NCBI GenBank assembly: GCA_020723405.1
Contig: DYIY01000001.1
Location: 62,001 to 126,000, forward strand
Direction of reading: 5' to 3'
DNA from: Thiobacillus denitrificans
GTDB lineage: Bacteria; Pseudomonadota; Gammaproteobacteria; Burkholderiales; Thiobacillaceae
Length of the DNA: 64,000 nt
The notes under the pieces were generated by a model. The model was not told where the DNA came from. It was given only the letters and a program-made list of their open reading frames with translations, and searched no databases. This document shows, piece after piece, positions 11,620-50,412 of the stretch. How positions within the stretch are numbered: position 1 is the first letter of the stretch; each line of letters opens with the position of its first letter. The position numbers and the translations under genes were made by a program.

Positions 11620-11738
11620 GTCGGTAGTCGGTAGTCGGTAGTTGGTAGTTGGTAGTCGGTAGCTTTTAGTTTCCGCGCCGAAGGCGCGCTGAAATTCAGC
11701 TACAGACTACCAACTACCAACTACCGACTCCGACTACC
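11620..11738. repeat. heptamer-armed inverted element, family A copy 1
   Basis: Fills the gcvT-gcvH gap. The left arm is six tandem heptamers (GTCGGTA x3, GTTGGTA x2, GTCGGTA). The core runs from TAGC to GCTA (about 43 bp) and contains the hairpin CGCGCC-GAA-GGCGCG. The right arm (CTACAGACTACCAACTACC and on) is the complementary heptamer series. The whole element could fold into one long stem with a GC-clamped tip. Confidence 0.92.
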
Positions 11739-11760
11739 TGCTTCCTCAACTGGAGAAACC

Positions 11761-12150
11761 ATGACCATCCCCGCCAACCTCAAATACGCCAAATCCCACG
11801 AATGGGCCCGCCTGGAAGACGACGGCACGGTCACCGTGGGCATCACCCATCACGCCCAGGACCTGCTGGGGGACATGGTCTTCGTGGAGAACCCCACCGT
11901 GGGTCGGCAACTCGCCGCCGGCGAGGAATGCGCCGTGGTGGAATCGGTGAAGGCCGCCTCCGACGTCTACGCCCCCATCGCCGGGGAAGTGGTGGCCGCC
12001 AACGCCGACGTGGAAGGCAGCCCGGAATCCATCAACCAGGACGCCTACGCCGCCTGGATGTTCAGGCTCAAGCCCGCCAACCCCGCCGACCTGGACGGCC
12101 TGATGGACGCCGCCGCCTACCAGGCCCATGTGGAATCGGAAGCACACTGA
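11761..12150 (+). CDS. gcvH: glycine cleavage system H protein
   Basis: 129 aa. The lipoyl carrier that shuttles the aminomethyl group between the P, T and L proteins. The start [18 protein letters not shown] is the usual N-terminus. The lipoylation motif [14 protein letters not shown] places the modified lysine at Lys64. [16 protein letters not shown] is the conserved C-terminal segment. GGAGAA lies 6 bases before the ATG at 11761. It is flanked on both sides by family A repeats. Confidence 0.98.
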
Positions 12151-12154
12151 GAGG

Positions 12155-12249
12155 AGTCGGTAGTCGGTGGTTGGTCGTCTGTAGCTGAATTTCAGCGCGC
12201 CTTCGGCGCGGAAACCTAAAGCTACCGACTACCGACTACTGACTACCGC
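12155..12249. repeat. heptamer-armed inverted element, family A copy 2 (core inverted)
   Basis: Fills the gcvH-gcvPA gap. The core TAGCTGAATTTCAGCGCGCC... is the near-exact reverse complement of the copy 1 core, with its hairpin read as GCGCC-TTC-GGCGC. Arms are about three heptamers each (GTCGGTA types on the left, CTACCGA types on the right). The opposite orientation of the core relative to copy 1, with the gene order unchanged, shows the element itself can sit either way round. Confidence 0.92.
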
Positions 12250-12257
12250 CTAAAGAG

Positions 12258-13646
12258 ATGCCCTTCATCCCCCATACCGAATCCGACGTGGCCGCCATGC
12301 TGGCCAGCATCGGCGCGCCCTCCCTGGACGCCCTGTTCGACGAGATCCCCCCAGACCTGAACTGCGGCGGTCTGGCCGGCATTCCCGAAGGCCTGTCGGA
12401 GATGGCGGTGACCCGCCTGACCCAGGAACGGGCGGCCCGGGACGGCTTCTACCTGAACTTCCTGGGGGCGGGGGCCTACGAACACCACATCCCGGCAGCG
12501 GTCTGGCAGATCGTCACCCGGGGGGAGTTCTACTCCGCCTACACCCCCTACCAGGCGGAGGCCAGCCAGGGCACCCTGCAACTGCTTTACGAATACCAGA
12601 CCATGATGGCCGGCCTCACCGGCCTGGACGTGTCCAACGCCTCCCTCTACGACGGCGCCTCGGCCCTGGCGGAAGCGGTGCTCATGGCGGTGCGGGCCAG
12701 CAAGGCGGGCATCCGCCGGGTGCTGGTGCCGGCCACGGTGCATCCCCGCTATCTGGCGGTGGCCCGCACCACGGTGAAGAACCAGGGCATCGAACTGGTG
12801 GGCGTGCCCTTCGATCCGGCCAGCGGGCTCACCGACCCGGCCGCCCTGGAGGCCCTGGGGGCCGAGCCGGCCGCCGCCCTGGTCATCCCCCAGCCCAACT
12901 TCTTTGGCCGCCTGGAAGCGGTGGACGCCCTCACCGACTGGGCCCACGCCCACGCCATGCTGGCCATCGCCTTGGTGAATCCCCTGTCCCTGGCCCTGCT
13001 CAAGCCGCCGGGCCAGTGGGGCAGCAAGGGCGCCGACATCTGCGTCGGCGACGGCCAGCCCCTGGGGGTGCCCCTGTCCTCCGGCGGCCCCTACTTCGGC
13101 TTCATGACCGCCCGCCAGGCCCTGGTGCGGCAGATGCCCGGCCGCATCGTGGGCCGCACCGTGGACCTGGACGGCCAGCCCGGCTTCGCCCTCACCCTCC
13201 AGGCCCGGGAGCAGCACATCCGCCGCTCCAAGGCCACCTCCAACATCTGCACCAACCAGGGCCTGCTGGTCACCGCCGCCACCCTCCACATGGCCCTGCT
13301 GGGCCCGGAGGGGCTGAAGAACGTGGCCCTGAGCAGCCACGCCAACACCCGGGCCCTGGTGGACAAGCTCACCGCCATCCCCGGCGTGGAGCGGGTGTTC
13401 CCCGGCCCCTTCTTCCACGAAGCGGTGATCCGGGTGAGCAGCCCGGTGCCAGAAGTGCTGCGGGCCCTGCGCGCCCAGGGCATCCTGGGGGGCTACGACC
13501 TGGGCCTGGACTACCCGGAACTGGCCGGCTGCATCCTGGTCTGTGCCACCGAGACCCGCACCGATGGCGACCTGGCCCAATACGCGCAACAATTGGAACG
13601 GATTCTCAGCCGGCGCCGGGAAGCCCCGCCCTGCGCCTACAAATGA
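12258..13646 (+). CDS. gcvPA: glycine dehydrogenase (decarboxylating) subunit 1
   Basis: 462 aa. The N-terminal half of the P protein, which with GcvPB forms an alpha2beta2 PLP enzyme that decarboxylates glycine onto lipoyl-GcvH. The start [15 protein letters not shown] is typical of GcvPA. Conserved blocks are [36 protein letters not shown] and [31 protein letters not shown] lies in the second half. The split P protein is the form usual in this class, unlike the single GcvP of enterobacteria. tpx follows 51 bp downstream, and gcvPB lies beyond that. Confidence 0.97.
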
Positions 13647-13697
13647 CCCCCGCACCAGCCGACCCCGGCCCGGCGCAACACCACAGGAGACACTGAC

Positions 13698-14210
13698 ATG
13701 GCAACCGTAACCCTTGGCGGCGAACCCATCTCCGTCGGCGGCAATTTCCCCCGACCCGGCGATTCTGCCCATTCCTTCATGCTGGTGGACAAGGACCTGA
13801 AGGACGTGTCCCTGTCCAGCTTCTGGGGCAAGCGCAAGATCCTCAACATCGTCCCCAGCCTGGACACCCCGGTGTGCCAGGCCTCTACCCGCAAGTTCAA
13901 CGAAATGGCCTCGGCCCTGCCCAACACCATCGTGCTGGTCATTTCCGCCGACCTGCCCTTCGCCCAGAACCGCTTCTGCGGCGCCGAGGGCCTGAAGAAC
14001 GTGCACACCCTGTCCACCCTGCGGGGCCGGGACTTCCACAAGGACTACGGCGTCATGATCATGGACCCGCCCCTGGCCGGCCTCACCGCCCGGGCCGTCA
14101 TCATCCTGGACGAGAACGACAAGGTGGTCCATTCGGAACTGGTGCCCGAGATCAAGCAGGAGCCCAACTACGATGCCGCTTTGGCGGCGGCGAAGGGCGA
14201 GCCGCTTTGA
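13698..14210 (+). CDS. tpx: thiol peroxidase (atypical 2-Cys peroxiredoxin)
   Basis: 170 aa. Reduces hydrogen peroxide and alkyl hydroperoxides with thioredoxin. [18 protein letters not shown] places the peroxidatic cysteine at Cys60, and [14 protein letters not shown] the resolving cysteine at Cys94, both at the standard Tpx positions. The protein is full length. The ribosome binding site AGGAGA is 7 bases before the ATG. The gene lies between the two subunits of the glycine dehydrogenase P protein, an unusual place for it. Confidence 0.96.
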
Positions 14211-14213
14211 AAC

Positions 14214-14334
14214 AGTCGGTAGGGGGTAGTCGGTAGTCTGTAGCTTTAAATTTCCGCGCCAGGGGCGCGCATGCCAAAAGCTACCGACTACCAACTACCA
14301 ACTACCAACTACCAACTACCGACCACCGACTACC
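14214..14334. repeat. heptamer-armed inverted element, family A copy 3 (variant core)
   Basis: Between tpx and gcvPB. The core is TAGCTTTAAATTTCCGCGCC followed by AGG-GGCGCGC and ends AAAAGCTA, so the hairpin loop has changed compared with the GAA loop of other copies. The right arm is long, about seven heptamers (CTACCGA and CTACCAA types). The left arm has about four. The right arm happens to be open in the gcvPB frame. Confidence 0.88.
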
Positions 14335-14351
14335 CTCTATCCGCCCAACAG

Positions 14352-15800
14352 ATGCTCATCTTCCAGCACGCCCGCCCCGGTCGCCGGGCCTACGCCCAGG
14401 CACCCCTCACCGCACCCGCTGCCGACGACCTGCCTGCCGAAGTTCTGCGCCAGGCGCCGCCGCCCTTGCCGGAGGTGTCGGAGCTGGACGTGGTGCGGCA
14501 TTACACAGGTTTGTCACAAAAGAACTTCAGCATCGACACCCAGTTCTATCCCCTGGGCTCCTGCACCATGAAGTACAACCCCCGGGCCTGCAATTCCCTG
14601 GCCCTGCTGCCCCAGTTCCTGGCCCGCCATCCCCTGGCCGACGCCGACACCGGGCAGGGCTTCCTCACCTGCCTCCACGAGCTCCAGGAGATGCTCAAGG
14701 AAGTCACCGGCATGGCCGCCGTGTCCATGGCGCCCATGGCCGGGGCCCACGGGGAGTTCGCCGGGGTGGCCATGATCCGCGCCTACCACGACGCCCGGGG
14801 GGACGCTGCCCGGCGGGAGATCATCGTCCCCGACGCGGCCCACGGCACCAACCCGGCCACGGCCACCATGTGCGGCTACACGGTGAAGGAGATTCCCACC
14901 GACCGCCAGGGCAACGTGGACCTGGAGGCCCTGAAGGCCGCCGTGGGGCCCCAGACCGCCGGCCTCATGCTGACCAACCCCTCCACCCTGGGGGTGTTCG
15001 AGAAGACCATCGTGGCCATCCAGAAGATCGTCCACGAGGCGGGGGGGCTCACCTATTACGACGGGGCCAACCTGAACGCCATCCTGGGCCGGGTGCGGCC
15101 CGGCGACATGGGTTTCGACGTGATCCACATGAACCTGCACAAGACCTTCTCCACCCCCCACGGCGGCGGCGGCCCCGGGGCCGGCCCGGTGGGCGTGTCG
15201 GAACGACTGCGCCCCTTCCTGCCGGTGCCCTACGTGGTGCAGGAACAGGATAGCTACCGGCTGGCCCGGATGGCCGACTGCCCCCAGAGCATCGGCCCCA
15301 TGAGCGCCTTCGGCGGCAACATGGGGGTTCTGCTGCGGGCCTGGGTCTATGCCCGCATGCTGGGCGGCAAGGGCATGGCCCGGGTGGCGGAATTCGCCGC
15401 CCTGAACGCCAACTATCTGGCGGCGGAATTGAAACGGGCCGGTTTCGACCTGGCCTTCCCGGAGCGCCGGGCCAGCCATGAGTTCATCGTCACCCTGAAG
15501 AAGCTCAAGGACGACACCGGCGTGTCGGCCATGGACTTCGCCAAGCGCCTGCTGGATTACGGCTTCCACGCCCCCACCACCTACTTCCCCATGCTGGTGC
15601 CCGAGTGCCTGCTCATCGAGCCCACGGAGACCGAAAGCAAGGAGACCCTGGACGCCTTCGTGGCGGCCATGGTGGCGGTGAAACGGGAAGCCGAGGGCCA
15701 GCCCGACCTGGTGAAATCCGCCCCCCACACCCTGCCCGCCCGCCGCCTGGACGACGTCAAGGCCGCCCGGGAGCTGGACCTGGTGTGGAAGGCCGCGTGA
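14352..15800 (+). CDS. gcvPB: glycine dehydrogenase (decarboxylating) subunit 2
   Basis: 482 aa. The PLP-bearing half of the P protein. The start is ATG 14352 ([18 protein letters not shown]); the frame is open 81 bp further upstream only because the repeat reads through as a Thr-Asp-Tyr/Leu-Pro-Thr-rich string. Conserved features are [28 protein letters not shown] and [17 protein letters not shown]. Lys264 in the last is the PLP Schiff-base lysine. The C-terminus [20 protein letters not shown] is typical. It is followed by dgkA with a 4-base overlap. Confidence 0.97.
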
Positions 15801-16189
15801 GCGAAGCCACAGGAACCCCGGAGGAAAGCCCCCACAAGGGGAAGACCGGCCTCAAGCGGGTCTGGAACGCCTTCTTCTACTCCCTGGACGGCTTTGCCGC
15901 CGCCTGGAAGCACGAGGACGCCTTCCGCCAGGAAGCCCTGCTGGCCATGCTCATGGTACCCCTGGCCTTCCTGCTTGCCGACGCGGCCCTGGAACGGGCT
16001 TTGATGATTGCCGTGGTGCTGCTGGTGCTCATCGTGGAACTCATCAATTCCGCCATCGAGGCCACGGTGGACCGCATCTCCCTGGAAAACCACCAGTTGG
16101 CCAAGCGGGCCAAGGATATCGGCAGCGCGGCGGTGCTGGTGTCACTCAGCAACGTGCTGGTGGTCTGGGGCCTGATCCTGTTCGGCTGA
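15797..16189 (+). CDS. dgkA: diacylglycerol kinase
   Basis: 130 aa from a GTG at 15797 that overlaps the gcvPB stop (GTGA). A small trimeric inner-membrane enzyme that phosphorylates diacylglycerol, recycling lipid from membrane-derived glycan synthesis. The amphipathic N-terminal region [28 protein letters not shown] matches the family (quoted here as ideas: short helix, then FRQE). Three transmembrane helices follow. The catalytic segment is [14 protein letters not shown] with [17 protein letters not shown]. Translational coupling to gcvPB is likely, but no functional link is evident. Confidence 0.94.
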
Positions 16190-16220
16190 GGGGCTACCCG
16201 GATCCGGGCCTGGCCCCTCA
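16187..16220. terminator. bidirectional terminator-like hairpin between convergent genes
   Basis: Outer arms TGAGGGGC (16187-16194) and GCCCCTCA (16213-16220) enclose a perfect 12-base palindrome CCCGGATCCGGG (16197-16208). It overlaps the ends of dgkA and the convergent 16218-16889 gene. There is no clear U-run, so termination is inferred from position and fold. Confidence 0.5.
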
Positions 16221-16889
16221 ATCACCGCCGCAGCCGCCGCCGCACCCCCCGCCATCGCCGTCTCCGCCACCGTCTCCGCCACCGTCCCCGCTGTCGGAAG
16301 CGCCCAGGTCCGCACCGCAATGGCTGCCGCCCTGGCTTGGATCGCCCGGTGACTTGCAGTCGGCGGTGTAGCGGAAACCGTCGGCGATACCCATTTTGCC
16401 GTCAATGGCGAACAGCAGAGGTAGCCGGCTGGGATGGCGGGGGTCGATGTTCTCCTCGCGGCAGGCATGCCACCAGACCCGGCGCAGGCCAACGTTGTTC
16501 CGCCGGTCCGCCCCCAGGACCACAGCCGGGGTATGGTGCAGGTAGCCACCGAAGGCTTCCTTGCAGAATGCCTGGTAGTGGCGGGTGTAGAGGATGAACT
16601 CGTGCCACAGGTCGTCGGCCAGTTGGGAAGGCATGGAGACGAAGCTTCGCCCCGCTTTCAGATAGGCCAGGAAGAACTGGCGCAAGGCCCGTTCAACCAG
16701 TTGTCGATCTTTCTCGCTCAATTGCGGCCGCCTGGCAGCCAGTTTGTCCAGCAGCCCGGGCGGCAGGGGCTGCTCCCGGATGTAGGCCTCACGCCGGGCC
16801 ACCCGCCACCTGGACCAGAACAAGAAACACAGGCCCAGGACGAATACGTTGAGGAGAAGCAGGGCGGGAGTCATGTCAGGTGGACCCAT
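16218..16889 (-). CDS. membrane-anchored protein with cysteine/glycine-rich tail
   Basis: 223 aa from ATG 16889; a second ATG at 16874 is equally possible, and neither has a strong ribosome binding site. Residues 7-25 form one transmembrane helix. The middle (about residues 45-150) is soluble, with the motif ADDLWHEFILYTRHYQAFC and a following YLHHTP. This is the WHE-F-x-H/Y pattern seen in glycine-rich-domain-like (GRDP) proteins. The last 40 residues are Ser, then Gly/Asp repeats (GDGGGDGGG type) ending in a GGGCGGGCGGD-like tail. The function is unknown. It lies 12 bp after the HDOD gene on the same strand. Confidence 0.7.
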   Translation of the reverse strand: MGPPDMTPALLLLNVFVLGLCFLFWSRWRVARREAYIREQPLPPGLLDKLAARRPQLSEKDRQLVERALRQFFLAYLKAGRSFVSMPSQLADDLWHEFILYTRHYQAFCKEAFGGYLHHTPAVVLGADRRNNVGLRRVWWHACREENIDPRHPSRLPLLFAIDGKMGIADGFRYTADCKSPGDPSQGGSHCGADLGASDSGDGGGDGGGDGDGGGCGGGCGGD

Positions 16890-16901
16890 TGGCTACCCGC
16901 A

Positions 16902-18362
16902 TCAGCCTCCCCGCGCCCAACCCTGGAGCAGGTCCCGCAGATGGGCCAGTTGCGCCAGCACGTCCTTGCCCAGTTTGGCGTCGTCGCCCTGTTGGCCGTA
17001 GAACAGGCCCAGGGGCTTGGCGTCGGCCATGGCCATGGGCAGCAGGAAGAAGGGGTGCAGGCTGTGGCTGCGGACCCAGTCGGGCAGGTGGGCGGCAATT
17101 TTCGCGTCCCGGGGATTGTCGATGTAGATGTCCACCTGTCGGGCCAGGGCGATCTGGGCCAGGTCAAAGTGGGCCAACCCGCCGCCGGGGCCGGCGGCCA
17201 GACTCAGGCCGGCCAGGCGGTTGGGCTCCCGGGCCACCCGGCTGGCCACCATGCGGTAGGCGCTGGCGTCACCCTGGCGGAGCAGGACGCCGGCCCGGCT
17301 CAATTCCAGGATGCGGAACGCCAGGTCCACCACCCGGTTGTCCATATCACCGCAACCCTCCGGACCGGCCAGTCCCTGGCGCAATTCGGCCAGTCCCTGC
17401 TCCAGCAGGCGCACCGGACTGGGCGGCGGCGTGGCCTTCCGCCCGCCGTCGGGAGCCCGGTCCTTGTCCAGCAGAATGCCGGCCAGCACGGGCTGGCTGC
17501 TGGCGCTGTCCACGGCCGCACGCACGGCCTCCCCCAGGGTTTCCGCCGGCAATCCCAGGCGGGGGGCGTATTCCTCGGCCAGGGCCTGGCTGGCCTCGGA
17601 ATCGGTCTCCCCCTCCCCCGTGGCCAGCAGGCTGGCGGAGCGGTCGGAGAAGCGGGTGAGGTCCATGAGCCAGGCATCCTCCTCCTCGCCGGGCATGGGT
17701 TCGTCGTGGGGCAGGGTGTGCACGATGCGGGACGGCAGGCGCCAGTGCCGGGCCACCTGGATGCCCAGTTGATCCGGGGTCATGCCCATGGCCTGACGGG
17801 CCGCCTGGTCCTCCTCCACCCCGGCGGCCACGGCCTCCTGCACCCGTTCCCATTCCTCGCTCAGATAGAAGGCGGACAACAGTCGTCCGGTGCGGTGCAG
17901 GAGGGAGCAGACCACGCCCACCTCGCCGTTGCGCACCGCGCCCCGGCCCACCACGGAGCCGGCCACGGATCCGGACAGCAGGCTGTGGCCCAGCTCCTTC
18001 TGGGCGTAGCGGGTGCCGCCCTGCATGCGCCCCATGGAACCGATGACCTTGACTCCCAGGGCCAGGTGGCCCACGGCCTCGTAGCCCAGGACGTTGACGG
18101 CGTGGGAGACGGTGGACACGGAGCGGCCGATGGGTGCGTACATGGCCGAATTGGCCAGACGCAGCACCTTCTGGGTCAGGGACACGTCTTCCAGCACGGC
18201 ATTGACCAGGGGCGCGGTGTCGTCTTCGCTCTTCTCCAGGGCATCGACGATGCGGGTCACGGAATGGTCCAGGGCGGGGAAGCCCCCGCCCTCGCTCATG
18301 CGCCGCAGGACTTTCTCGGCCAGAGCCTCGCCACCCTCGCCCGAGGCCGGAGGGGGGTTCAT
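16902..18362 (-). CDS. HDOD-domain signalling protein
   Basis: 486 aa from the ATG at 18362, which overlaps the TGA of the upstream GGDEF/EAL gene (ATGA). Residues about 15-215 form an HDOD domain: FPALDHSVTRIVDAL, DVSLTQKVLRLANSAMY and VSTVSHAVNVLGYEAVGHLAL are its recurring helices. HDOD lacks the catalytic metal residues of true HD domains and acts as a signalling scaffold. The C-terminal half (about 330-480) may be a GAF-like sensor (FRILELSRAGVLLRQGD, then VDIYIDNPRD). Coupling to a c-di-GMP enzyme gene suggests a shared signalling role. Confidence 0.82.
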   Translation of the reverse strand: MNPPPASGEGGEALAEKVLRRMSEGGGFPALDHSVTRIVDALEKSEDDTAPLVNAVLEDVSLTQKVLRLANSAMYAPIGRSVSTVSHAVNVLGYEAVGHLALGVKVIGSMGRMQGGTRYAQKELGHSLLSGSVAGSVVGRGAVRNGEVGVVCSLLHRTGRLLSAFYLSEEWERVQEAVAAGVEEDQAARQAMGMTPDQLGIQVARHWRLPSRIVHTLPHDEPMPGEEEDAWLMDLTRFSDRSASLLATGEGETDSEASQALAEEYAPRLGLPAETLGEAVRAAVDSASSQPVLAGILLDKDRAPDGGRKATPPPSPVRLLEQGLAELRQGLAGPEGCGDMDNRVVDLAFRILELSRAGVLLRQGDASAYRMVASRVAREPNRLAGLSLAAGPGGGLAHFDLAQIALARQVDIYIDNPRDAKIAAHLPDWVRSHSLHPFFLLPMAMADAKPLGLFYGQQGDDAKLGKDVLAQLAHLRDLLQGWARGG

Positions 18363-20068: not shown

Positions 20069-20319
20069 AAGAAGTCCCTGGTTTGTCTGATTCCCTTATC
20101 GGCTGTCTCGGGAATTCGCTTGATGAATTATCCGATCAATCTCCCCAATACATGGTTCCCGGGGATCACGGAACGCATGGTCGTGTGAGAATATTACCCG
20201 GCTTGTACGGCACGTTTTTCCCTCTCTGTAACCTATGTCACGGACAGCATCCGGGCAAGTCGCCAGCATGGGTTCGGATGTCCCCTGCGCCGCTCCCGGC
20301 GCTGTTTCAGGAGCCTGTC
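20069..20319. promoter_or_regulatory. divergent intergenic region
   Basis: 251 bp between the GGDEF/EAL gene (minus) and the PKD-protein gene (plus). It is noticeably richer in A+T than its surroundings, as expected for divergent promoters. I could not assign confident -35/-10 pairs. The plus-strand gene has a clear AGGAG (20310-20314 area) before its ATG at 20320. No gene or known riboswitch is recognised in the rest. Confidence 0.4.
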
Positions 20320-22131: not shown

Positions 22132-22142
22132 TGAAGAAGGCC

Positions 22143-22162
22143 GGCGGGCGTCAAAGCCCGCC
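22143..22162. terminator. hairpin between convergent genes
   Basis: Arms GGCGGGC (22143-22149) and GCCCGCC (22156-22162) with a GTCAAA loop lie between the PKD gene and the convergent pyruvate-kinase-like gene, overlapping the latter's stop. There is no U-run, so the call rests on position and fold. Confidence 0.4.
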
Positions 22163-24016: not shown

Positions 24017-24080
24017 GCCCGAAGCTTAGGCCGGAAATGTGACAACCGTGCTGCCCGGCCTTGCCCACCGGGGGCGGAGG

Positions 24081-37113: not shown

Positions 37114-37163
37114 CCGCCAGCCACCGACCACCGCTACCGACCACCGACTACCCCCTACCGACT
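37114..37163. repeat. half copy of the family A heptamer element
   Basis: Only a pyrimidine-type arm (CCACCGACCACCGCTACCGA and on) lies between alr and trpC. No core hairpin and no opposite arm are present. It could be a remnant of a full element or a seed for one. Confidence 0.75.
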
Positions 37164-37976: not shown

Positions 37977-38005
37977 CGATCCCGTCAGGAAAGACCCCAG
38001 CCCCC

Positions 38006-39298
38006 ATGCACAAACGCACCTGGATCCTCGCTGCCGCCGTCGTCCTCCTGGCCGGCGGCGGTCTCCTGGCCTGGCACCCCTGGCAGGCCCGGGAGACCGG
38101 CCCCCAATATCGCCTGGCCAAGCTTGAGCGGGGCCCCCTGTCCGCCGCCGTCACCGCCAGCGGCAGTCTGTCGGCCCTGGTCACCGTCCAGGTGGGCTCC
38201 CAGGTGTCGGGCCAGATCCAGGACATCCGGGTGGATTTCAACAGCGAGGTGAAGGCCGGCCAGGTCATCGCCCGTCTGGACCCGGCCACCTTCGAGTCCC
38301 GGGTCAACCAGGCGGAAGCCGACCTGAAGGCCGCCGAGAGCGCCACGGAAGTCTCACGGGGCAGCCTGGTGGTGCGCCAGGCGGAAGCCGGCAAGGCGAA
38401 GATCGCCCTGGACGACAGCCTGCGCAACCTGGAGCGCAAGCGGGCCCTGGTGCAGCAGGCCTTCATTTCCGCCGCCGAACTGGACACCGCCCAGGCCGGC
38501 GTGGACACCGCCCGGGAACAGGTGCGCCTGGCCCAGGCCGACGTGGCCGTGGCCCAGGCCCAGGTGGCCAGCGCCCAGGCCCAGGTGGCCCAGCGCCAGG
38601 CCGCCCTGCGCCAGGCCCGGCTGGAACTGGAGCGGACGGTGATCCGCTCGCCGGTGGACGGGGTGGTCATCAGCCGCAACGTGGACGTGGGCCAGACCGT
38701 GGCCGCCTCCCTGCAGGCCCCGGTGCTGTTCACCATCGCCCGGGACCTGCGCCGGATGGAAGTGAACGTGGCCGTGGACGAAGCCGACGTGGGCCGGGTC
38801 GGCGCCGGCCAGAAGCTGCGCTTCAGCGTGGACGCCTTCCCCGGCGAACGCTTCCAGGGCCAGGTCACCCAGATCCGCAAGGCGCCCCAGACCAGCAACA
38901 ACGTGGTCACCTACAGCGTCATGGCCCGGGTGGACAACCCGGAACTGAAACTCCTGCCGGGCATGACCGCCAGCGCCCGCATCCTCACCGAGGAGCGTCA
39001 GGACGTCCTCAAGCTGCCCAACGAAGCCCTGCGCTTCCGCCCCGTCCAGGCCGACGGCACCCCCGTCAAGCTGGAAGTGCGCAACCGGGAGGAAGGCCCG
39101 GGCATCCCCGGCCGCATCTGGGTCCTCAAGGAAGGCAAACCCGAGCCGGTCAACGTGCGCCTGGGCGTGAGCGACGGCAAGGCCACGGAAATGCTCAGGG
39201 GCGAGCTGACAGCCGGCCAGGAAATCATCCTGGGCGTGGAGGAAAGCAGCCTCAACAAGGCCGCCAAGCCCGCCAGGCCCTTCGGCGGAGGGATGTAA
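38006..39298 (+). CDS. MacA-like periplasmic adaptor of an ABC exporter
   Basis: 430 aa. An N-terminal membrane anchor (about residues 5-24) is followed by lipoyl half-domains (TVQVGSQVSGQIQDIRVDFN and later RSPVDGVVISRNVDVGQTV). Between them is a long Ala/Gln-rich alpha-hairpin (repeated AQAQVA units). The beta-barrel and membrane-proximal domain are typical of the HlyD/MacA family. It would link an inner-membrane ABC transporter to an outer-membrane channel. The next two genes encode a MacB-type ATPase and permease, but no TolC homologue is present here. Confidence 0.9.
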   Translation: MHKRTWILAAAVVLLAGGGLLAWHPWQARETGPQYRLAKLERGPLSAAVTASGSLSALVTVQVGSQVSGQIQDIRVDFNSEVKAGQVIARLDPATFESRVNQAEADLKAAESATEVSRGSLVVRQAEAGKAKIALDDSLRNLERKRALVQQAFISAAELDTAQAGVDTAREQVRLAQADVAVAQAQVASAQAQVAQRQAALRQARLELERTVIRSPVDGVVISRNVDVGQTVAASLQAPVLFTIARDLRRMEVNVAVDEADVGRVGAGQKLRFSVDAFPGERFQGQVTQIRKAPQTSNNVVTYSVMARVDNPELKLLPGMTASARILTEERQDVLKLPNEALRFRPVQADGTPVKLEVRNREEGPGIPGRIWVLKEGKPEPVNVRLGVSDGKATEMLRGELTAGQEIILGVEESSLNKAAKPARPFGGGM

Positions 39299-39300
39299 AG

Positions 39301-39467
39301 GCGGTGAGGAGTAAAGGCGGTGAGGGGTGAGGAGTAAATCCCCCATCCGCCCCCTCCTCACTCCTCACTCCTCACTCCTCACTCCTCACTCCTCACCCCT
39401 CACCCCTCACCCCTCACCCCTCACCCCTCACCCCTCACCCCTCACTCCTCACTCCTCACTCCTCACC
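39301..39467. repeat. heptamer array element, TCACTCC family copy 2, with 16 tandem units
   Basis: The purine arm 39301-39335 (GGTGAGGAGTAAAGGCGGTG and on) is followed by 16 uninterrupted 7-base units from 39354 to 39465: six CTCCTCA, seven CCCCTCA, three CTCCTCA. The array ends 6 bases before the ATG of the ATPase gene and replaces any visible ribosome binding site. Seven-base units can expand or contract by slippage. In the mRNA the unit resembles the anti-Shine-Dalgarno sequence. Confidence 0.95.
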
Positions 39468-39471
39468 AACC

Positions 39472-41423: not shown

Positions 41424-41429
41424 TCTTTC

Positions 41430-42149
41430 ATGCTTTCATCCTCACGGACCCGCGCCATCGCCGCTGCCTGTCTCCTCGGCCTGGGCTCATCCTCGGCCGC
41501 CTGGCCCCAGGCCGGCCAGAACGGCACGCCCCCGCCGGCTGCCATGGTCCCGCCCCCCCCGCCCAGCCTGTCGGATCTGGGCAAGTCCCTGCGCGGCTAT
41601 TTCACCGACGAGGAACTGGACATCCTCTTCCAGTACATGCGCGACTCCTTCATCGCCACCTTCAAGGGGGAGGAGGTGACCCTGCCGGCGGATCTGGCCT
41701 TCAAGCTGGAAATCCTCCTGGCGCGCATGAAGAAGGAGGGGGGGCATTATATGGACAACCTGATCCAGCGCCTGGAAAAGGATTTGCAGCGGACCCTGAA
41801 GGAAAAGCTCACGCCGCCGGACACCTCGGTGTCACCCTACTCCCCCCCTGCCCTCCTTCCCCCGGTCCCGGCCCAGCCCCCGCTCCCGGTCCAACCGGCC
41901 CCAGATCCCCAGCCTGGCGCCCGCTATCTGCCGACAGGCTTTCCCCAGCCCGCCTTCCAGATGCCGGCCACCTACAACCCGCCAGGCTGGCTGCCAATCA
42001 CCGGCTCCGCCGTGGTGAGCTACACGCCACCCGCCCTCCAGCCCCTGTCCTTCCAGCAGCAGAGCCCGGCCCCCCAGGGCCTGAAACTGCCGGCCCTGCC
42101 CTTCCTGCCCTTCCTGTTCCAGCCAGCCGGGTTGACTCCCGACCCCTGA
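41430..42149 (+). CDS. exported proline-rich protein of unknown function
   Basis: 239 aa, 6 bp after the permease gene. Residues 1-24 are a signal peptide (RAIAAACLLGLGSSSAAW). A Pro-rich stretch (about 34-46) leads to a helical domain (about 47-130: LGKSLRGYFTDEELDILFQY, then KLEILLARMKKEGGHYMDNL). The last 110 residues are Pro/Gln/Leu-rich and probably disordered. I recognise no family. Tight spacing suggests it is made with the exporter; it could be a substrate or accessory. It is convergent with the DAHL gene. Confidence 0.65.
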   Translation: MLSSSRTRAIAAACLLGLGSSSAAWPQAGQNGTPPPAAMVPPPPPSLSDLGKSLRGYFTDEELDILFQYMRDSFIATFKGEEVTLPADLAFKLEILLARMKKEGGHYMDNLIQRLEKDLQRTLKEKLTPPDTSVSPYSPPALLPPVPAQPPLPVQPAPDPQPGARYLPTGFPQPAFQMPATYNPPGWLPITGSAVVSYTPPALQPLSFQQQSPAPQGLKLPALPFLPFLFQPAGLTPDP

Positions 42150-42158
42150 TACCGGGGT

Positions 42159-44735: not shown

Positions 44736-45748
44736 GGCGCGATCAGGGGCAGACGGCCGTTCTGGGCGCGCAGGAATGCCACCAGCGCCCAGCGCTCTTC
44801 CTCGGCCAGGCGGACACCCAACTGGTTGCGGGCCATCACGTCCACCGCCTTGTCCAGGGTGGCGATGCTGCCATCGTGGAAATAAGGGGCGGTGCGCGCC
44901 ACGTTGCGCAGGGTGGGCACCTTGAAGACGTGCCGGTCTTCTTCCCGGCCGGTGACGTTGAAACGGCCCAGGTCGCTCTTCTGCAGGGCGCCGCCCCGCT
45001 CGGCGAAATAGTTGCCCATGACCCCCAGGGTGGCGTACATGTTGCCGCCCATGTTCACCCCCTGGTGACAGGCCACGCAGCCCAGGTTGCGGAACAGGTC
45101 CCAGCCGCGCAGGGCATCCGCTGCCAGGGCATTCGCGTCCCCCCGAAGATAGCGGTCGAAGGGGGAATCGGGGGTGATGAGGCTGCGCTCGAACTCGGCG
45201 ATGGCCCGCTGGATGTGGGCCGGCTGGATGCCGTCAGGCCACAGGGCGGAAAATTCGGCCACGTAGCCAGCATCGCCCCGCAGCTTGGCCATGACCTGGG
45301 CCCAGTCGGTGGCCATCTCGATGGGATTGTGCACGGGGCCCTCGGCCTGCTCTTCCAGGGTGGCGGCCCGGCCATCCCAGAACTGGCGGAAGCTGAAGGC
45401 ACTGTTGAATACCGTGGGACTGTTCAGGGTGCCCATCTGGCCATCCACGCCCATGGCCGTTTCCCGGGCGTCGCCGCCGGCCAGTTCCAAATCGTGGCAG
45501 GAGGCGCAGGCCACCGTATCGTCCCGGGACAGGCGCTTGTCGTGGAACAGGCGGCGGCCCAGCGCTACCAGACGGGGGTCCAGATCCAGCGCGCCGGGGA
45601 TGGGGGTGATGGGCTGGTCGCTGGCCGGTGGGAACAGGGGGGGCGGAAAGGTGGCCGGAGGGGGCGCCGTGGGCCAGACATGGATGGCCACCGCCAAGCC
45701 CAGAACGGTCACCAACCCTCCCAGCAGCAGACCCCGCGTACCGATCAT
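44732..45748 (-). CDS. di-haem cytochrome c peroxidase (CcpA/MauG family)
   Basis: 338 aa from the ATG at 45748, which has GAGG six bases upstream; an ATG 12 bp earlier (45760) lacks a ribosome binding site. An N-terminal hydrophobic segment (LLLGGLVTVLGLAVAIHVW) is a signal or anchor. Two CxxCH haem sites are present: CASCH in the N-terminal domain and CVACH in the C-terminal domain. LGRRLFHDKRLSRD, NSPTVFNSAF and VPTLRNVARTAPYFHDG are family signatures. It reduces hydrogen peroxide in the periplasm with electrons from small cytochromes, or acts on a protein substrate like MauG. It overlaps a c-di-GMP sensor gene. Confidence 0.93.
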   Translation of the reverse strand: MIGTRGLLLGGLVTVLGLAVAIHVWPTAPPPATFPPPLFPPASDQPITPIPGALDLDPRLVALGRRLFHDKRLSRDDTVACASCHDLELAGGDARETAMGVDGQMGTLNSPTVFNSAFSFRQFWDGRAATLEEQAEGPVHNPIEMATDWAQVMAKLRGDAGYVAEFSALWPDGIQPAHIQRAIAEFERSLITPDSPFDRYLRGDANALAADALRGWDLFRNLGCVACHQGVNMGGNMYATLGVMGNYFAERGGALQKSDLGRFNVTGREEDRHVFKVPTLRNVARTAPYFHDGSIATLDKAVDVMARNQLGVRLAEEERWALVAFLRAQNGRLPLIAP

Positions 45749-45858
45749 TCCGAACCTCATGGAGGTGACTATCGGTCAAGCCCATGGTTAACTTTAGGCG
45801 CTCCCCCGATAACCTTGTCCCTCTCCAGGGATTGGGGCCCCTCCGGCCCCCCGTGGAA

Positions 45859-46353
45859 TCAGGGACTGGCCGTCTCCAGGTCGAAGGCGATGGCCTTGAG
45901 CCCCTCCCGGGCGCAGGCCTCGTCCTGTTCGCCGGTGGCCGCCCCCGACACCCCCACGGCGCCGACGATGTTGCCCGCCGCCTCGATGGGAATGCCGCCG
46001 GCAGAGAACACCAGGCCGTCCACCTTGCCCACGGCGAAGGGCTTGGTGAAGCGGTTCTCCATGGTGGACAGGGGGGCGTTGAAGTTCACCGCCGTGAAGG
46101 CCTTCTGCTTGCTGATCTCGATGGTGATCCTGGGTGCCAGGGTGTCGCGCAGGAAGACCATGGGGTCGCCGCTGCGGTCCACCACGGTGACGCCGATCTG
46201 GATGCCTTCCTTGCGGCAGGCGGCGATGGTGGCCTGGGCCAGCTTTTCCGAGGCCTCCAGGGTCAGGCGGGGAATCTTGATGACGGCGGGGATGTCGGCG
46301 TGGGCGGCGAAGGATGCGGCCAGCAGGGCCGGCAGGACGATCAGGCGTTTCAT
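45859..46353 (-). CDS. GlcG/HbpS-like exported protein
   Basis: 164 aa from the ATG at 46353 with GAGGAG six to seven bases before it. Residues 1-19 are a signal peptide (MKRLIVLPALLAASFAAHA). The mature domain has LTLEASEKLAQATIAACRKE, VTVVDRSGDPMVFLRDTLA, SKQKAFTAVNF and GGIPIEAAGNIVGAVGVSG, the GlcG/HbpS fold. Some relatives bind haem or cobalamin; ligand here unknown. It lies 46 bp downstream of the ATPase D gene on the same strand but with its own good ribosome binding site. Confidence 0.88.
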   Translation of the reverse strand: MKRLIVLPALLAASFAAHADIPAVIKIPRLTLEASEKLAQATIAACRKEGIQIGVTVVDRSGDPMVFLRDTLAPRITIEISKQKAFTAVNFNAPLSTMENRFTKPFAVGKVDGLVFSAGGIPIEAAGNIVGAVGVSGAATGEQDEACAREGLKAIAFDLETASP

Positions 46354-46399
46354 GGTCTCTCCTCGTGGGTGGCTGGGCACGCCCCCCCGGGCGGAGAGG

Positions 46400-47026
46400 C
46401 TATGCGGCTTCGGCGGCCCGGGCGCGCAACACCTTGATCTGGAACAGGGTGTTGCGCTCATCCTCCTCCAGGGCGGCGCGGATATGATGCACCGTGGCCT
46501 GGTAGCGGGGAATGATGTTGTACTTCAGCGCGTTCACCCGTTTCTGGGTCTTGCGGCTGGCCGCCAGGAGACGCCACAGGGCGTTCTCCGCCTCGCCGAG
46601 ACGGGCCAGGGTCACGGTAAGTTCCCGCAGACGCAGCCGGGCCTCGTCGAAGCTCACGTCGGTCCACATGAGCCCCACCGGTTGCAGGGGCAGGGGGGAG
46701 GCGGACACGCTGGGATATTCCACGCCCACGCTGGAACGGGCCACCACCCGCAGGGCCACCGCGGGGTTGAGGCCCACCGAGGCCTGGCGCAGCATCTGCC
46801 CGCCCATGCGCATCTGCACGATGCCCAGCCAGTGGTAGGCCTCGGCCAGTTCCCGGGCGGTCTGGGCCCGCAGTTCCCGGTACTGGGCCAGGCGCTCGTA
46901 GACCAGCCGGGTCAGCAGGTCCCGTTTCTTCTCCAGCATGGCCCGGCCCTGCTCGAGGAACTTCACCTGGCGCCCGACTTGCAGCAGGGCGCTTTTCGTG
47001 GGGGGGACGGAGAGGCGTTTTTTCAT
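46400..47026 (-). CDS. ntpD: A/V-type ATPase subunit D
   Basis: 208 aa. The coiled-coil central-stalk subunit inside the A3B3 head. The start MKKRLSVPPTKSALLQVGRQ is typical. The C-terminal SRKTQKRVNALKYNIIPRYQ is the hallmark of subunit D. The heptad-rich helices run at both ends. It is the last gene of the ATPase operon; a family A repeat separates it from subunit B. Confidence 0.95.
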   Translation of the reverse strand: MKKRLSVPPTKSALLQVGRQVKFLEQGRAMLEKKRDLLTRLVYERLAQYRELRAQTARELAEAYHWLGIVQMRMGGQMLRQASVGLNPAVALRVVARSSVGVEYPSVSASPLPLQPVGLMWTDVSFDEARLRLRELTVTLARLGEAENALWRLLAASRKTQKRVNALKYNIIPRYQATVHHIRAALEEDERNTLFQIKVLRARAAEAA

Positions 47027-47030
47027 TGCT

Positions 47031-47127
47031 GAGTCGGTAGTCGGTAGAGGGTAGTTGGTAGCATGAAATTACCGCGCCGAAGGCGCGCCGATTTCAAGCT
47101 ACAGACTACCGACTACACACTACCAAC
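47031..47127. repeat. heptamer-armed inverted element, family A copy 4
   Basis: Between the D and B subunit genes. The core TAGCATGAAATTACCGCGCC-GAA-GGCGCG... ends TTTCAAGCTA. Arms of about four heptamers lie on each side (GTCGGTA, GTTGGTA; CTACAGA, CTACCGA). The right end overlaps the last codons of the B subunit gene (stop at 47113-47115), so the element supplies the B subunit C-terminus. Confidence 0.9.
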
Positions 47128-48504
47128 TCCTCCTTTGTGATACTTCGCCAGTTCCTCTTCGCTGACCCGGATGAGGGCTTCGGGGGGCAGCATGGAAAGC
47201 AGGTCCCAGGCGATGTTGAGGGTTTCGAACACGCTGCGGTCCTCGTCTTCTCCCTGGCCGATGAAGCGCCGTTCGAAGGCTTCGGCGAAACGCAGGTAGC
47301 GGCGGTCGGCGTCGGACAGTTCCTCGGCGCCGATGATGGCGGCCAGGCCGCGCACTTCCAGGGCCTTGGCGTAGCTGGCGAAGAGCTGGCTGGCCACGTG
47401 GGGGTGGTCTTCCCGGGTGAAGTTCTTGCCGATGCCGTCCTTCATGAGGCGGGACAGGGAGGGCAGCACGGACACCGGCGGATAGACCCCCTGGTTGGAC
47501 AGTTCCCGGCCCAGCACGATCTGGCCTTCGGTGATGTAGCCCGTCAGGTCGGGGATGGGGTGGGTGATGTCGTCGGAGGGCATGGACAGCACCGGGATCA
47601 GGGTGATGGAACCGCGCCGGTTCTTGATCCGCCCGGCCCGTTCGTAGATCTCCGCCAGGTCGGAGTAGAGGTAGCCCGGATAGCCTTTGCGGGCCGGCAC
47701 GTCGCCGCGCAGCACGGCCACTTCCCGCAGGGCCTCGGCGTAGGCGGTCATGTCGGTCATCACCACCAGCACGTGGTAATCCAGGTCGAAGGCCAGGTAT
47801 TCGGCGGCAGTCAGGGCCGCCCGGGGGGTGAGCAGGCGTTCGATGACCGGCTCGTCGGCCAGGTTGAGGAACATCACCACCTTGTTGAGCACCCCCGATT
47901 CCTCGAAGCTCTCCTGGAAGAAGCGGGCGTCGGCGTGGGAGGCGCCGAAGGCGGCGAACACCACCACGAATTCCGAGGACTCCTCACCGAGAAGCTTGGC
48001 CTGGCGGACGATCTGGGCCGCCACCCGGTTGTGGGGCAGGCCGCCGCCGGAAAACACCGGCAGCTTCTGGCCCCGGGTCAGGGAGTTCATGCCGTCGATG
48101 GCGGAGATGCCGGTCTGGATGAATTCCCGGGGGTAGGCCCGGGCTGCCGGGTTGAGGGGCTCGCCGTTCACGTCCCGCCGGTCGGCGGAGATGATGGGGG
48201 GCCGGCCGTCCCGGGCCAGGCCGGCGCCGTTGAACACCCGGCCCAGGATGTCCCGGGACACGGGCAGGCGGAAAGGCTCGTCCAGGAAGCGCACCCAGGT
48301 GCGCTCCAGGTCCAGCTCGTCGGTGCCCTCGAAGACTTCCACCAGCACGGCATCGTCGGCGGAACGGATCACCAGGCCGTTGCGCAGGTTGCCGGCGTGG
48401 TCCTTGATCTGCACCCGGGAACCCGCCGCCACGCCGGGCACCCCGGCCATGACGATGAGCCCCCCCTGGGCGGAGGTGGCGGTGCGGAACTCGATGTTTT
48501 TCAT
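47113..48504 (-). CDS. ntpB: A/V-type ATPase subunit B
   Basis: 463 aa. Non-catalytic nucleotide-binding subunit alternating with A in the head. GNPTVE-type beta-barrel and GISAIDGMNSLTRGQKLPVFS are conserved, with the P-loop degenerate (GGGLPHNRVAAQI) as expected for B. AEYLAFDLDYHVLVVMTDMT and IPVLSMPSDDITHPIPDLTGYI are strong signatures. The last residues lie in the arm of a family A repeat. Confidence 0.97.
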   Translation of the reverse strand: MKNIEFRTATSAQGGLIVMAGVPGVAAGSRVQIKDHAGNLRNGLVIRSADDAVLVEVFEGTDELDLERTWVRFLDEPFRLPVSRDILGRVFNGAGLARDGRPPIISADRRDVNGEPLNPAARAYPREFIQTGISAIDGMNSLTRGQKLPVFSGGGLPHNRVAAQIVRQAKLLGEESSEFVVVFAAFGASHADARFFQESFEESGVLNKVVMFLNLADEPVIERLLTPRAALTAAEYLAFDLDYHVLVVMTDMTAYAEALREVAVLRGDVPARKGYPGYLYSDLAEIYERAGRIKNRRGSITLIPVLSMPSDDITHPIPDLTGYITEGQIVLGRELSNQGVYPPVSVLPSLSRLMKDGIGKNFTREDHPHVASQLFASYAKALEVRGLAAIIGAEELSDADRRYLRFAEAFERRFIGQGEDEDRSVFETLNIAWDLLSMLPPEALIRVSEEELAKYHKGGVGSV

Positions 48505-48519
48505 GGTGCTACCTTGTCG

Positions 48520-50298
48520 TCACGCGGCGGGACCGGACTGGGCGTAGTCCAGGGCGATCTGCTCGAACTCGGCGGGGATGCGGGCGATCTTGTCCTTCAG
48601 GGCCGCCAGGTCCTCGGACTTGTGCTGGCTCTTCCAGCGCCGGGCCTGGGCCAGCAGGGGCATCTGGATCAGGCGGCGGGCGGAGGCCCCCAGCTTCACC
48701 AGTTTCATGCCCTGGCGGTGGATCTCCAGCAGGGCGGCCAGGAGGGCGTACTGCTTTTCCGGGGAGGCGAAGCTGTCGGTGTCATCGGTGGCCGCCTGCT
48801 GCAACAGGCCTTCCTTGATGAGACCGGCGGATTCCAGGGTCCAGCGCTGTTCGCTGGACAGGGCTTCCACCCCCACCAGGTTGACGATGCGCTGCAATTC
48901 CTCGGATTCGGCCAACAGGTCCAGGGCCTCGGCCCGGGCGGTTTCCCAGCCCGGGTCCACGTTCTCGGCCCACCATTTGGCGGCGGAGGGCACGTAGCCG
49001 GAGAAGCTTTCCAGCCAGTCCACCGCCGGGTAGTGGCGGGCGTCGGCCAGTTCCTTGGATAAAGCCCAGAAGGTCTGGATGATTTCCTTGGTGTGGCTGG
49101 TGACCGGTTCGGAGAAGTCGCCGCCGGGGGGGGACACGGCGCCGATGAGGGTGACGGAGCCGTGGTCGCCGGACAGGGTTTCCACCCGCCCGGCCCGCTC
49201 GTAGAAGGCGGCAAGGCGGGAACCCAGGTAGGCGGGGTAGCCTTCCTCCACGGGCATCTGGCCCAGGCGGCCGGCCACTTCCCGCAGGGCTTCGGCCCAG
49301 CGGCTGGTGGAGTCGGCCACCATCACCACGTCGTAGCCCTGGTCGCGGAAGTATTCGGCCAGGGTGATGCCCACGTAGATGGAGGCTTCCCGGGCCACCA
49401 CCGGCATGTTGGAGGTGTTGGCCACCAGCAGGGTGCGTTCCATGAGGGGCCGGCCGGTGTGGGGATCCTTCAGTTCCGGCATGAATTCCAGCACGTCGGT
49501 CAGCTCGTTGCCCCGCTCGCCGCAACCCACGTAGATGACGATCTCGGCGTTGCACCAGCGGGCGATCTGCTGCTGGAGCATGGTCTTGCCGGCACCGAAG
49601 GGACCGGGGATGGCCGCCTTGCCGCCCTTCAGCAGGGGGTAGAAGGTGTCCAGGATGCGTTGTCCGGTGATGAGGGGCTTCACCGCGTGGTCCCGGTGCT
49701 TGAAGGGACGGGGGGTGCGCACCGGCCAGCGGTGGAACAGGTGGAGCTTTTCGATGCGCCCGTCGTGGCGCTTCACCCGGCCGATCACCTCGTCCACGGT
49801 GTAGTCCCCTTCCGGGGCCAGTTCCAGGAGTTCGCCGTGCACGAGGGGCGGGGTGAGGATGCGGTGCAGGATGGATTCGGTCTCCTGGACCGTGCCCAGC
49901 ACGTCGCCGCCGGCCAGGGGGGTCTCGGCCCGGCGGTGGGGGTCGGGCACGAAGTGCCAGCGTTTGTCCCGGGGCAGGGAAGGTACAGCGACACCCCGGG
50001 CGATGCGATCGCCGCTTTGTTCCCAGACCGCATTCAGAGGCCGCTGCACGCCGTCGAAGATGGCGTTGAGCAGCCCCGGGCCCAGCTCCACGGACAGGGG
50101 CCAGCCCAGTCCTTCCGCCACTTCGCCGGGCTTGAGGCCCGCCGTGTCTTCGTAGAGTTGCGCCAGGGCGGTTTCGCCGTCCCGGCCGATGACTTCGCCC
50201 ACCAGCCCGATGCGACCCACCCGCACCTGTTCGCCGATCACCGTTTCCGGCAATTCCAGCTTGACCAGGGGACCGTTGACTTCAAGGATTTTGCCCAT
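48520..50298 (-). CDS. ntpA: A/V-type ATPase catalytic subunit A
   Basis: 592 aa. The P-loop is GPFGAGKTMLQQQIARW. The non-homologous region typical of A subunits lies at about 120-200. YVGCGERGNELTDVLEFMPE, NTSNMPVVAREASIYVGITLAEY and TLIGAVSPPGGDFSEPVTSH are signatures. Site of ATP synthesis or hydrolysis. The gene is 15 bp before B; a family A repeat lies upstream, between E and A. Confidence 0.97.
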   Translation of the reverse strand: MGKILEVNGPLVKLELPETVIGEQVRVGRIGLVGEVIGRDGETALAQLYEDTAGLKPGEVAEGLGWPLSVELGPGLLNAIFDGVQRPLNAVWEQSGDRIARGVAVPSLPRDKRWHFVPDPHRRAETPLAGGDVLGTVQETESILHRILTPPLVHGELLELAPEGDYTVDEVIGRVKRHDGRIEKLHLFHRWPVRTPRPFKHRDHAVKPLITGQRILDTFYPLLKGGKAAIPGPFGAGKTMLQQQIARWCNAEIVIYVGCGERGNELTDVLEFMPELKDPHTGRPLMERTLLVANTSNMPVVAREASIYVGITLAEYFRDQGYDVVMVADSTSRWAEALREVAGRLGQMPVEEGYPAYLGSRLAAFYERAGRVETLSGDHGSVTLIGAVSPPGGDFSEPVTSHTKEIIQTFWALSKELADARHYPAVDWLESFSGYVPSAAKWWAENVDPGWETARAEALDLLAESEELQRIVNLVGVEALSSEQRWTLESAGLIKEGLLQQAATDDTDSFASPEKQYALLAALLEIHRQGMKLVKLGASARRLIQMPLLAQARRWKSQHKSEDLAALKDKIARIPAEFEQIALDYAQSGPAA

Positions 50299-50313
50299 GT
50301 TTTCCTCTTTGAG

Positions 50314-50412
50314 CGGGTAGTCGGTGGTCGGTAGCTGGTAGCTTTGATTAGCGCGCCGAAGGCGCGGAAACTCAAGCTACAGACTACCGACCACCGACTA
50401 CCGACTACCGAC
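50314..50412. repeat. heptamer-armed inverted element, family A copy 5
   Basis: Between the E and A subunit genes. The core TAGCTTTGATTAGCGCGCC-GAA-GGCGCG... ends CTCAAGCTA. Arms are GGTAGTC/GGTGGTC units on the left and about five CTACCGA/CCACCGA units on the right. The flank GCTACAGAC next to the core is the same as in copies 1 and 4. Confidence 0.9.

Follow-up and report, generated by a model that had tools for sequence, protein, structure and literature searches.

How do short palindromes scattered between the genes of a bacterium keep their places while their sequences change? The question is raised by a 64-kb stretch of DNA from Thiobacillus denitrificans (the window, meaning the whole stretch that was analysed), in which inverted elements with arms made of 7-bp units, GGTAGTC and its variants, surround a short core hairpin. 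The elements have a common anatomy and an operon-like placement between genes of the same direction. Their slots are shared with a second species, their cores are inverted in place, their arm units have changed at many sites, a slot may hold different heptamer families in different genomes, and one local copying event is seen. The source genome of the window (G000) is a 4.15-Mb draft in 42 contigs, 99.34% complete. It was compared with a second species of the same genus (G020) and with two further element-rich genomes of the genus (G015 and G010).

Anatomy and placement of the elements

At 32 positions of the window three GGTAGTC units in a row are matched with no more than 4 mismatches, whereas five Markov-randomised windows gave 0. 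The 14-mer GGTAGTCGGTAGTC occurs 99 times in G000 with at most 1 mismatch, and its backwards control 0 times. Full elements extracted from G000 by their sequence number 36, nearby GTAG and CTAC having been used as criteria. A covariance model built from 35 of them (alignment A2; L055:1584, which has an odd core end, was omitted) finds at least 90 matches in G000 with both strands counted; 150 candidates were scored per genome, and such counts may be low. As the element is palindromic and matches on both strands, the family occupies about 45 places. Eight further loci, whose cores were accepted without one-by-one inspection, were added by means of the model, and together with the half copy of the window they bring the number of placed elements to 45. 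The family is thus genome-wide, and the model finds it in G020 also. Other heptamer families, GTGAGGA, GAGAGTC and CCCCATT, coexist with it in G000.

A first-pass annotation of the window had described five full copies and one half copy, with heptamer arms, core ends TAGC and GCTA, and a CGCGCC-GAA-GGCGCG hairpin. All six are present where it placed them (Table 1) and this architecture, with the hairpin as CGCGCC-nnn-GGCGCG, is seen in the sequence, but two elements of the GTGAGGA family had been missed.

The elements are about 80-130 bp long, their stems being rows of heptamers. Folded as single-stranded DNA, the five full copies have z scores of -6.7 to -14.0 relative to dinucleotide shuffles. 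An exact CGCGCC/GGCGCG stem is present in 33 of the 36 extracted elements, and the base pair below it is a C·C or G·G mismatch in 34 (Fisher p 4e-8). The hairpin loop is variable, with 18 trinucleotide versions among the 36 elements; the altered loop pointed out earlier in copy 3 is therefore not special. The innermost pair of the arms is a mismatch in 27 elements, G·T in 3 and Watson-Crick in 6 (Fisher p 6e-5 for dependence between the two sides). No link is visible between the polarity of the core and that of the inner mismatch. GTAG flanks the core on both sides in 36 of 36 elements, partly by construction, and recurs every 7 bp along both arms.

The arms in G000 have 1 to 9 units. Their length is variable, and 23 of 82 arms have GTCG or GCGG as the next four bases outside the outermost unit. 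Neither within nor across GGTAGTC units is there a run of three G, which some families of the relatives do have. The consensus of the arm unit depends on its distance from the core in G000 (chi-square p 2e-8; 41 elements), and this finding narrowed an earlier idea that the arm units form a free genome-wide pool. No such position effect was found in G020 (p 0.33; 25 elements). There is also a weak alternation of two units along the arms (p 0.03).

The gene calls come from a codon model for which the window served as training sequence. The 45 elements (36 full, 8 added and the half copy) lie between co-directional genes in 44 cases, between divergent genes in one and between convergent genes in none. 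This is an enrichment over the window, where 16 of the 22 spacers longer than 60 bp are co-directional (Fisher p 0.004). The spacers that bear an element are mostly 86-152 bp long (range 64-337), and the element fills most of the spacer. The sole element between divergent genes (L063, 1430-1607, in G000) has repeated GGTAGCTTCTTATAGCGG blocks to the left of a normal element.

No promoter was found in positions 11600-14400, which hold copies 1 to 3, and the same scan found 0 T-run terminators; copies 4 and 5 lie outside it. Given the terminator result and the co-directional placement, we infer that the elements should be transcribed within operons and would be present in polycistronic mRNA as intercistronic hairpins. 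A heptamer element is contained in 8 of the 16 co-directional window spacers longer than 60 bp, and the elements may thus affect the relative expression of genes within an operon.

Slots, cores and arms compared between species

In G020 the core family has at least 64 two-strand matches to the covariance model, or about 32 places, and the regions round 31 of these elements were compared with G000. A GTAG site of G000 coincides with 24 of the 31, comprising 23 full pairs and the coreless half copy before trpC. Among the remaining G020 elements, L217 meets a G000 site that has no GTAG, and for the other six (L213, L215, two in L221, L254 and L263) there was no G000 stretch for comparison. Starting from G000, 24 of its 45 sites are paired; at the others the G020 counterpart is absent, belongs to another family or is not in hand. 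An empty G020 slot lies opposite the G000 element at L055:1519, and the reverse situation occurs with other families, for example at L222:748 and L244:4044.

The cores could be compared in 22 of the 23 pairs; L264/L060 was skipped, as no standard hairpin was found in its G020 member. Orthologous cores are 0.721 alike and non-orthologous ones 0.662, a difference reached in 0 of 20,000 permutations, showing that the cores descend in place between the two species. With a similarity cut-off of 0.06 for the orientation call, 10 of the 22 cores are inverted in place, 11 are not and 1 is ambiguous. The flipped cores taken alone are still recognisable as orthologs (0.707 against a null of 0.658; 3 of 5,000 permutations).

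The arm units have changed in concert. GTAG is followed by TC in 68 of 143 units of the paired elements in G000 and in 6 of 155 units in G020 (p 7e-20); the two bases after GTAG are mainly TC in the former and mainly CT, CG and CC in the latter. Only a slight trace of the orthologous unit remains: 0.144 of units are identical where 0.093 are expected (p 0.016).

The first-pass annotation had proposed a recombining structural repeat distinct from the ordinary repetitive extragenic palindromic (REP) sequences and bacterial interspersed mosaic elements (BIME). The in-place inversions bear this out, as do the unrelated heptamers that follow the same plan in relatives. It had also proposed that the repeat is mobile, which is supported in part. 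Gain or loss over longer times, one local copying event and the replacements in slots described below agree with this, but the 24 coincident sites do not. Relatives do not everywhere carry the same element with the same arm length.

Six slots hold different heptamer families in G000 and G020, one of them truncated where the G000 stretch ends. Examples, with the G000 family given first, are GTGAGGA/GGGTAAA at 5831, GTAG/GGGAAAC at copy 1 and GTGAGGA/GGGAAAC near 39300. By hand count there are nine slots that are occupied in G000 and lack the same family in G020; six of these have another family, and the other three hold little or nothing. This count excludes weak 7-bp-periodic stretches that appear to lie in genes (L044:2163 and window 36098), as well as L050:2424, which is beyond the G020 contig end. 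Compared with an approximate background, in which 8 of 52 co-directional pairs are occupied, the excess of swapped slots has p 7e-4, with small numbers and with regions that were chosen for their GTAG elements.

The polarity of these changes is given by a third genome. On the basis of GcvH identity G015 had been considered as an outgroup; this was rejected, because the flanks show that G015 and G020 are a close pair to which G000 is the outgroup. Over about 3 kb the flanks of G015 and G020 have identities of 90.7-97.2%, with 89.5% in a single stretch of 410 bp. Those of either genome show 76-88% identity to G000 in most places and 91-92% in three stretches. Two slots, gcvH-gcvPA and L300 (listed as L290 and L300), hold a GTAG element in both G000 and G020 and a GGACTGA element in G015. 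Most simply, the GTAG element would have been replaced by GGACTGA in the G015 line. GGACTGA has 35 matches in G015, 5 in G020 and 1 in G000. In some G015 elements AGTAGCG units occur alongside AGGACTG units, and gradual conversion in place is therefore indistinguishable from replacement. A long CTCGCTA/CTCACTA array lies beside GGACTGA units in G020 (L279, 1476-1666); the array's unit GAGTAGC looks intermediate between the GGTAGCG and AGGACTG types.

One event of copying within a genome is seen between the gcv genes. The core of copy 1 is an inverted near-copy of the copy 2 core, 522 bp away, and the two are 0.96 alike. The copy 2 core is 0.85 like its G020 ortholog, over a slightly different window. 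As the slot of copy 1 is occupied by another family in both G020 and G015 (Table 1), copy 1 is taken as a copy of copy 2 that was probably made in the G000 line. G013 is absent from the comparison of gcv spacers among genomes of the genus, and some spacers are missing or long. In two other genomes, G006 (L199) and G011 (L195), the gcvH-gcvPA spacer holds no heptamer element but an inverted repeat of another kind, its arms resembling GGGTGGATAAGCGATAGCG.

Elements of the window and of wider relatives

The window elements are given in Table 1. Their flanking genes include gcvT, gcvH, gcvPA, redoxin, alanine racemase, trpC and V/A-type ATPase subunits. The inverted core of copy 2 had been recorded earlier; that of copy 5 is inverted too.

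Table 1. Heptamer-armed elements of the window and the occupants of the same slots in related genomes
Element	Position	Strand	Structure and neighbouring genes	Same slot elsewhere
Copy 1	11620-11738	.	Heptamer arms round core; between gcvT and gcvH	GGGAAAC-armed element in G020 and G015
Copy 1 core	11663-11699		Orientation A (C·C strand)	
Copy 2	12155-12249	.	Core inverted (orientation B); between gcvH and gcvPA	Orthologous core in G020; GGACTGA-armed element in G015
Copy 3	14214-14334	.	Between redoxin gene (13698-14210) and co-directional gene called at 14352-15800	
Half copy	37114-37163	.	Right-arm units, no core; between alanine racemase gene and trpC	Coreless CTACCCG array in G020
Copy 4	47031-47127	.	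Between V/A-type ATPase subunit D and alpha/beta-type genes	Site common to G020, core orientation unchanged
Copy 5	50314-50412	.	Core inverted (orientation B); between V/A-type ATPase alpha/beta-type and E genes	Short hairpin only in G020
GTGAGGA-family element	5831-5905	.	In co-directional spacer	GGGTAAA/GGGGGAA-armed hairpin in G020
GTGAGGA-family element	~39299-39468	.	GTGAGGA left arm, long CTCCTCA/CCCCTCA right arm; after gene called at 38006-39298	GGGAAAC-armed hairpin in G020

The redoxin-like gene before copy 3 comes after gcvPA within the gcv run, and the gene called at 14352-15800 is, by its position, a candidate gcvPB. Upstream of the gcv genes, at 9402-9568, are tandem glycine riboswitch aptamers (Rfam RF00504, 72.9 and 52.3 bits). 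These two were the only hits in an Rfam scan of the window, which found no family above its gathering score on the elements. The V/A-type ATPase genes at 46400-51069 (D, two alpha/beta-type and E), with two elements between them, are found in an apparent betaproteobacterium.

The wider distribution was followed in 80 genomic loci fetched by means of GcvH, many of them labelled Thiobacillus, Sulfuricella, Hydrogenophilales or Nitrosomonadales. Together with the window, these 81 loci gave 97 gcvT-gcvH and gcvH-gcvPA spacers of at least 60 bp; 5 loci gave no gcvT-gcvH spacer and 12 no gcvH-gcvPA spacer. When each spacer was matched to itself at a displacement (lag) of 7 bp, at least 16 of 21 positions agreed in 35 of the 97, although the loci are related and the 35 are not independent. 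Among the other lags from 4 to 15, lag 14 was found in 22 spacers, lag 9 in 2, lags 5 and 10 in 1 each and the rest in 0; shuffled spacers gave 0. In the whole of the 80 loci, genes included, a threshold of 17 of 21 gave 42 clusters at lag 7, 25 at lag 14 and 14 at lag 21, compared with 10 at lag 6, 9 at lag 9, 7 at lag 18, 3 at lag 12 and 0 to 2 at the rest. In a 50-kb stretch of Escherichia coli K-12 none of the lags from 4 to 22 gave a cluster. Spacers in L118, L123, L139 and L142 have a 9-bp period with ACGAAGGAC- and CAGAGGACA-like repeats. Because of this smaller group, the 7-bp period is dominant but not exclusive.

The heptamers of the relatives include GGGAAAC, GGACTGA, GTGAGGA, GGATTCA/GGGGTCA, GGGGCTA, GGGGCAA, GGCAAGT and others, and many of these elements have no GTAG. 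Most of the 45 spacers with a lag-7 match of at least 15 fold, by eye, into one long hairpin (L131 and L173 are among the exceptions). A G-rich left half together with a C-rich right half is seen in 41 of these 45 heptamer spacers and in 15 of 42 controls, the opposite being found in 1 and 7, respectively; the other 10 of the 97 spacers have values between the two thresholds and were assigned to neither set. In L124, L126, L129, L134, L135 and L170 a common GTGCGGC/GCCGCGC-like core occurs in at least one spacer, with arms that differ (GGATTCA/GGGGTCA as opposed to GGGGCTA). This suggests that a second family, too, may keep its core and change its arms.

Explanations and comparison with known repeats

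The preferred reading, which is given a probability of about 0.5, is that these are intercistronic hairpins that stay in their slots and are rewritten by recombination or template switching between copies. The element is a palindrome between a stop codon and the next start codon in the same direction, often inherited in its slot with its contents rewritten. Replication may stall at the palindrome and lead to template switching, or ectopic gene conversion may occur, through the short homology that the heptamers provide. Either process would invert the core in place and exchange arm units for the version common elsewhere in the genome. Occasionally an element would be copied into another slot or replaced by one of another heptamer family. 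In the excerpts that were available of the papers cited here and below, template switching between inverted-repeat arms inverts the spacer and makes the arms alike (PMC8604942), and template switching at inverted repeats is also treated elsewhere (PMC8794818). The inversion of the spacer fits such a process, but the likeness of the arms is genome-wide rather than within the element, so exchange between elements must be added.

Several results weigh against this reading. The left and right arms of the same element agree in 830 of 1152 comparisons where 815 are expected, and 902 of 5,000 permutations did as well; tested by units, p is 0.104 in G000 and 0.75 in G020. Arms of one element are thus no more alike than arms of different elements, which argues against simple correction within the element. 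Mispairing of the innermost arm pair is so prevalent (27 mismatches and 3 G·T in 36) that something appears to preserve it. The true ortholog ranks first among 22 for four of the 10 flipped cores, and for the others it ranks 3, 3, 3, 7, 11 and 20. No donor tracts of conversion have been traced. As about half of the G000 sites are without a G020 counterpart in hand, long-term gain and loss may be substantial. Nor does this reading account for a unit of 7 bp.

A broader reading is held more tentatively. The elements might belong to a class of intercistronic palindromes that is defined by its 7-bp unit and not by its sequence, in which slots between operon genes persist over long times and some rewriting process changes the heptamers of many sites together, flips the cores and exchanges families. 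The rewriting would be trans-templated or recombinational, with the core flipped until its orientation is random. If true, dispersed non-coding repeats would evolve in concert in the absence of a known transposase.

It is rather unlikely that the heptamers are arrays of binding sites for a trans-acting protein or RNA, the arms having changed because the specificity of the binder changed. Concerted change of arm units between species at sites that stay, the position-specific consensus in G000, the weak two-unit alternation and the almost exclusive placement between co-directional genes would all agree with such a role. However, no binder has been identified, the position effect is missing in G020, and several binders would be needed, as there are several families per genome and slots differ in their family at a flank divergence of about 8%.

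Less likely again are plain simple-sequence repeats, in which local polymerase slippage changes the number of units and the palindrome is incidental. According to PMC4679880, which refers to an earlier survey, heptanucleotides are the most frequent long repeats of most genomes, and slippage has been proposed for them in bacteria; both the range of units per arm in G000 and the long arrays (window 39355-39467; G015 L302) are what slippage would produce. Adjacent units, however, resemble each other no more than units taken from different elements do (0.32 and 0.321 in G000; 0.16 and 0.20 in G020). No signature of local slippage was thus found, and this speaks against it as the principal process. 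The inverted form of the same word is kept in both arms, and the same change is seen at many distant sites.

It is improbable that the element is a REP or a miniature inverted-repeat transposable element mobilised by a REP-associated tyrosine transposase (RAYT), that is, a non-autonomous element whose GTAG beside the hairpin is recognised by a Y1 (HUH) transposase. One REP superfamily is characterised by GTAG at its stem-loop end (PMC3733652), the heptamers contain this tetramer, and the stem mismatch is conserved. The RAYT-type Y1 transposase domain PF01797 was looked for, as the one transposase family searched, and was not found in G000, G020 or G010; a RAYT partner, for which the first-pass annotation had proposed a search, is thus not supported, the source genome having 0 matches. 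Two PF01797 genes occur in G015, where the element has at least 24 two-strand matches. Of the 23 genus genomes, 17 have the domain; one of these is G015, and the other 16 have at most 4 element matches each. With PF01797 not found in three of the four element-rich genomes, and GTAG missing from many elements of the relatives, the idea of a RAYT as the probable agent was rejected. That the elements are bidirectional intrinsic terminators or attenuators, for which strong hairpins and the G-rich strand 5' of the centre could speak, is very improbable, given that T-run terminators were not found round copies 1 to 3, that elements lie inside the gcv and ATPase gene runs and that 0 of 45 are in convergent spacers.

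Small dispersed repeats embedded in tandem heptamers occur in cyanobacteria. In the literature examined, bacterial heptamer repeats are noted as common, without a tested account of their origin or role. A search of open-licence papers found no account of the core, the in-place inversion, the concerted change of units or the swapping of families in slots. The only match to the repeat strings was in a paper on an insect, unrelated as far as its available text goes, and the available parts of PMC4666352 and PMC12306157 have no mention of heptamers. Here, copies can be compared at shared sites and polarity is given by a third genome, which makes it possible to distinguish between slippage, gene conversion, transposition and selection. 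Since slots are kept while words change, centres flip and hairpins differ, the repeats may show how distant short repeats in a bacterial genome change together.

Like the REP/BIME sequences and the GTAG palindromes that go with a RAYT, the elements are small, extragenic, multicopy palindromes with GTAG at the stem-loop end, and unpaired bases occur in some of those families too (PMC3733652). Those repeats have one GTAG end per unit and form head-to-head or tail-to-tail dimers of singletons, whereas here GTAG recurs every 7 bp in both arms. The present elements differ also in that no RAYT was found in G000, that many of their equivalents in relatives have no GTAG and that the spacers are nearly always co-directional. 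The TAACTGA repeats of Beggiatoaceae are likewise short intergenic heptamer arrays, near start codons. They are direct, with 169 sets as opposed to one inverted case, and no core hairpin is described in the text available (PMC4679880); the arms here are inverted. GGGACCG in Geobacter metallireducens is multicopy, with four tandem heptamers in 49 places, but it also occurs within genes, and inverted arms round a core are not described in the excerpts at hand (PMC2700814).

As far as the available text of PMC4692102 goes, inverted heptamer arrays are already in print for Xanthomonas; for the core, its inversion, the concerted change and the slot swapping no account was found. The GGGAATC repeats of Xanthomonas are intergenic, heterogeneous heptamer arrays with 70 and 75 convergent close pairs able to form stem-loops (PMC4692102), and convergent tandem heptamers in intergenic DNA are found here as well. 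That report stresses G-quadruplexes; GGTAGTC has no run of three G. In the present family, unlike what the available text of that report describes, there is a core hairpin with a conserved mismatch, the core is inverted in place, a change of units is shared at common sites, and families are swapped in their slots.

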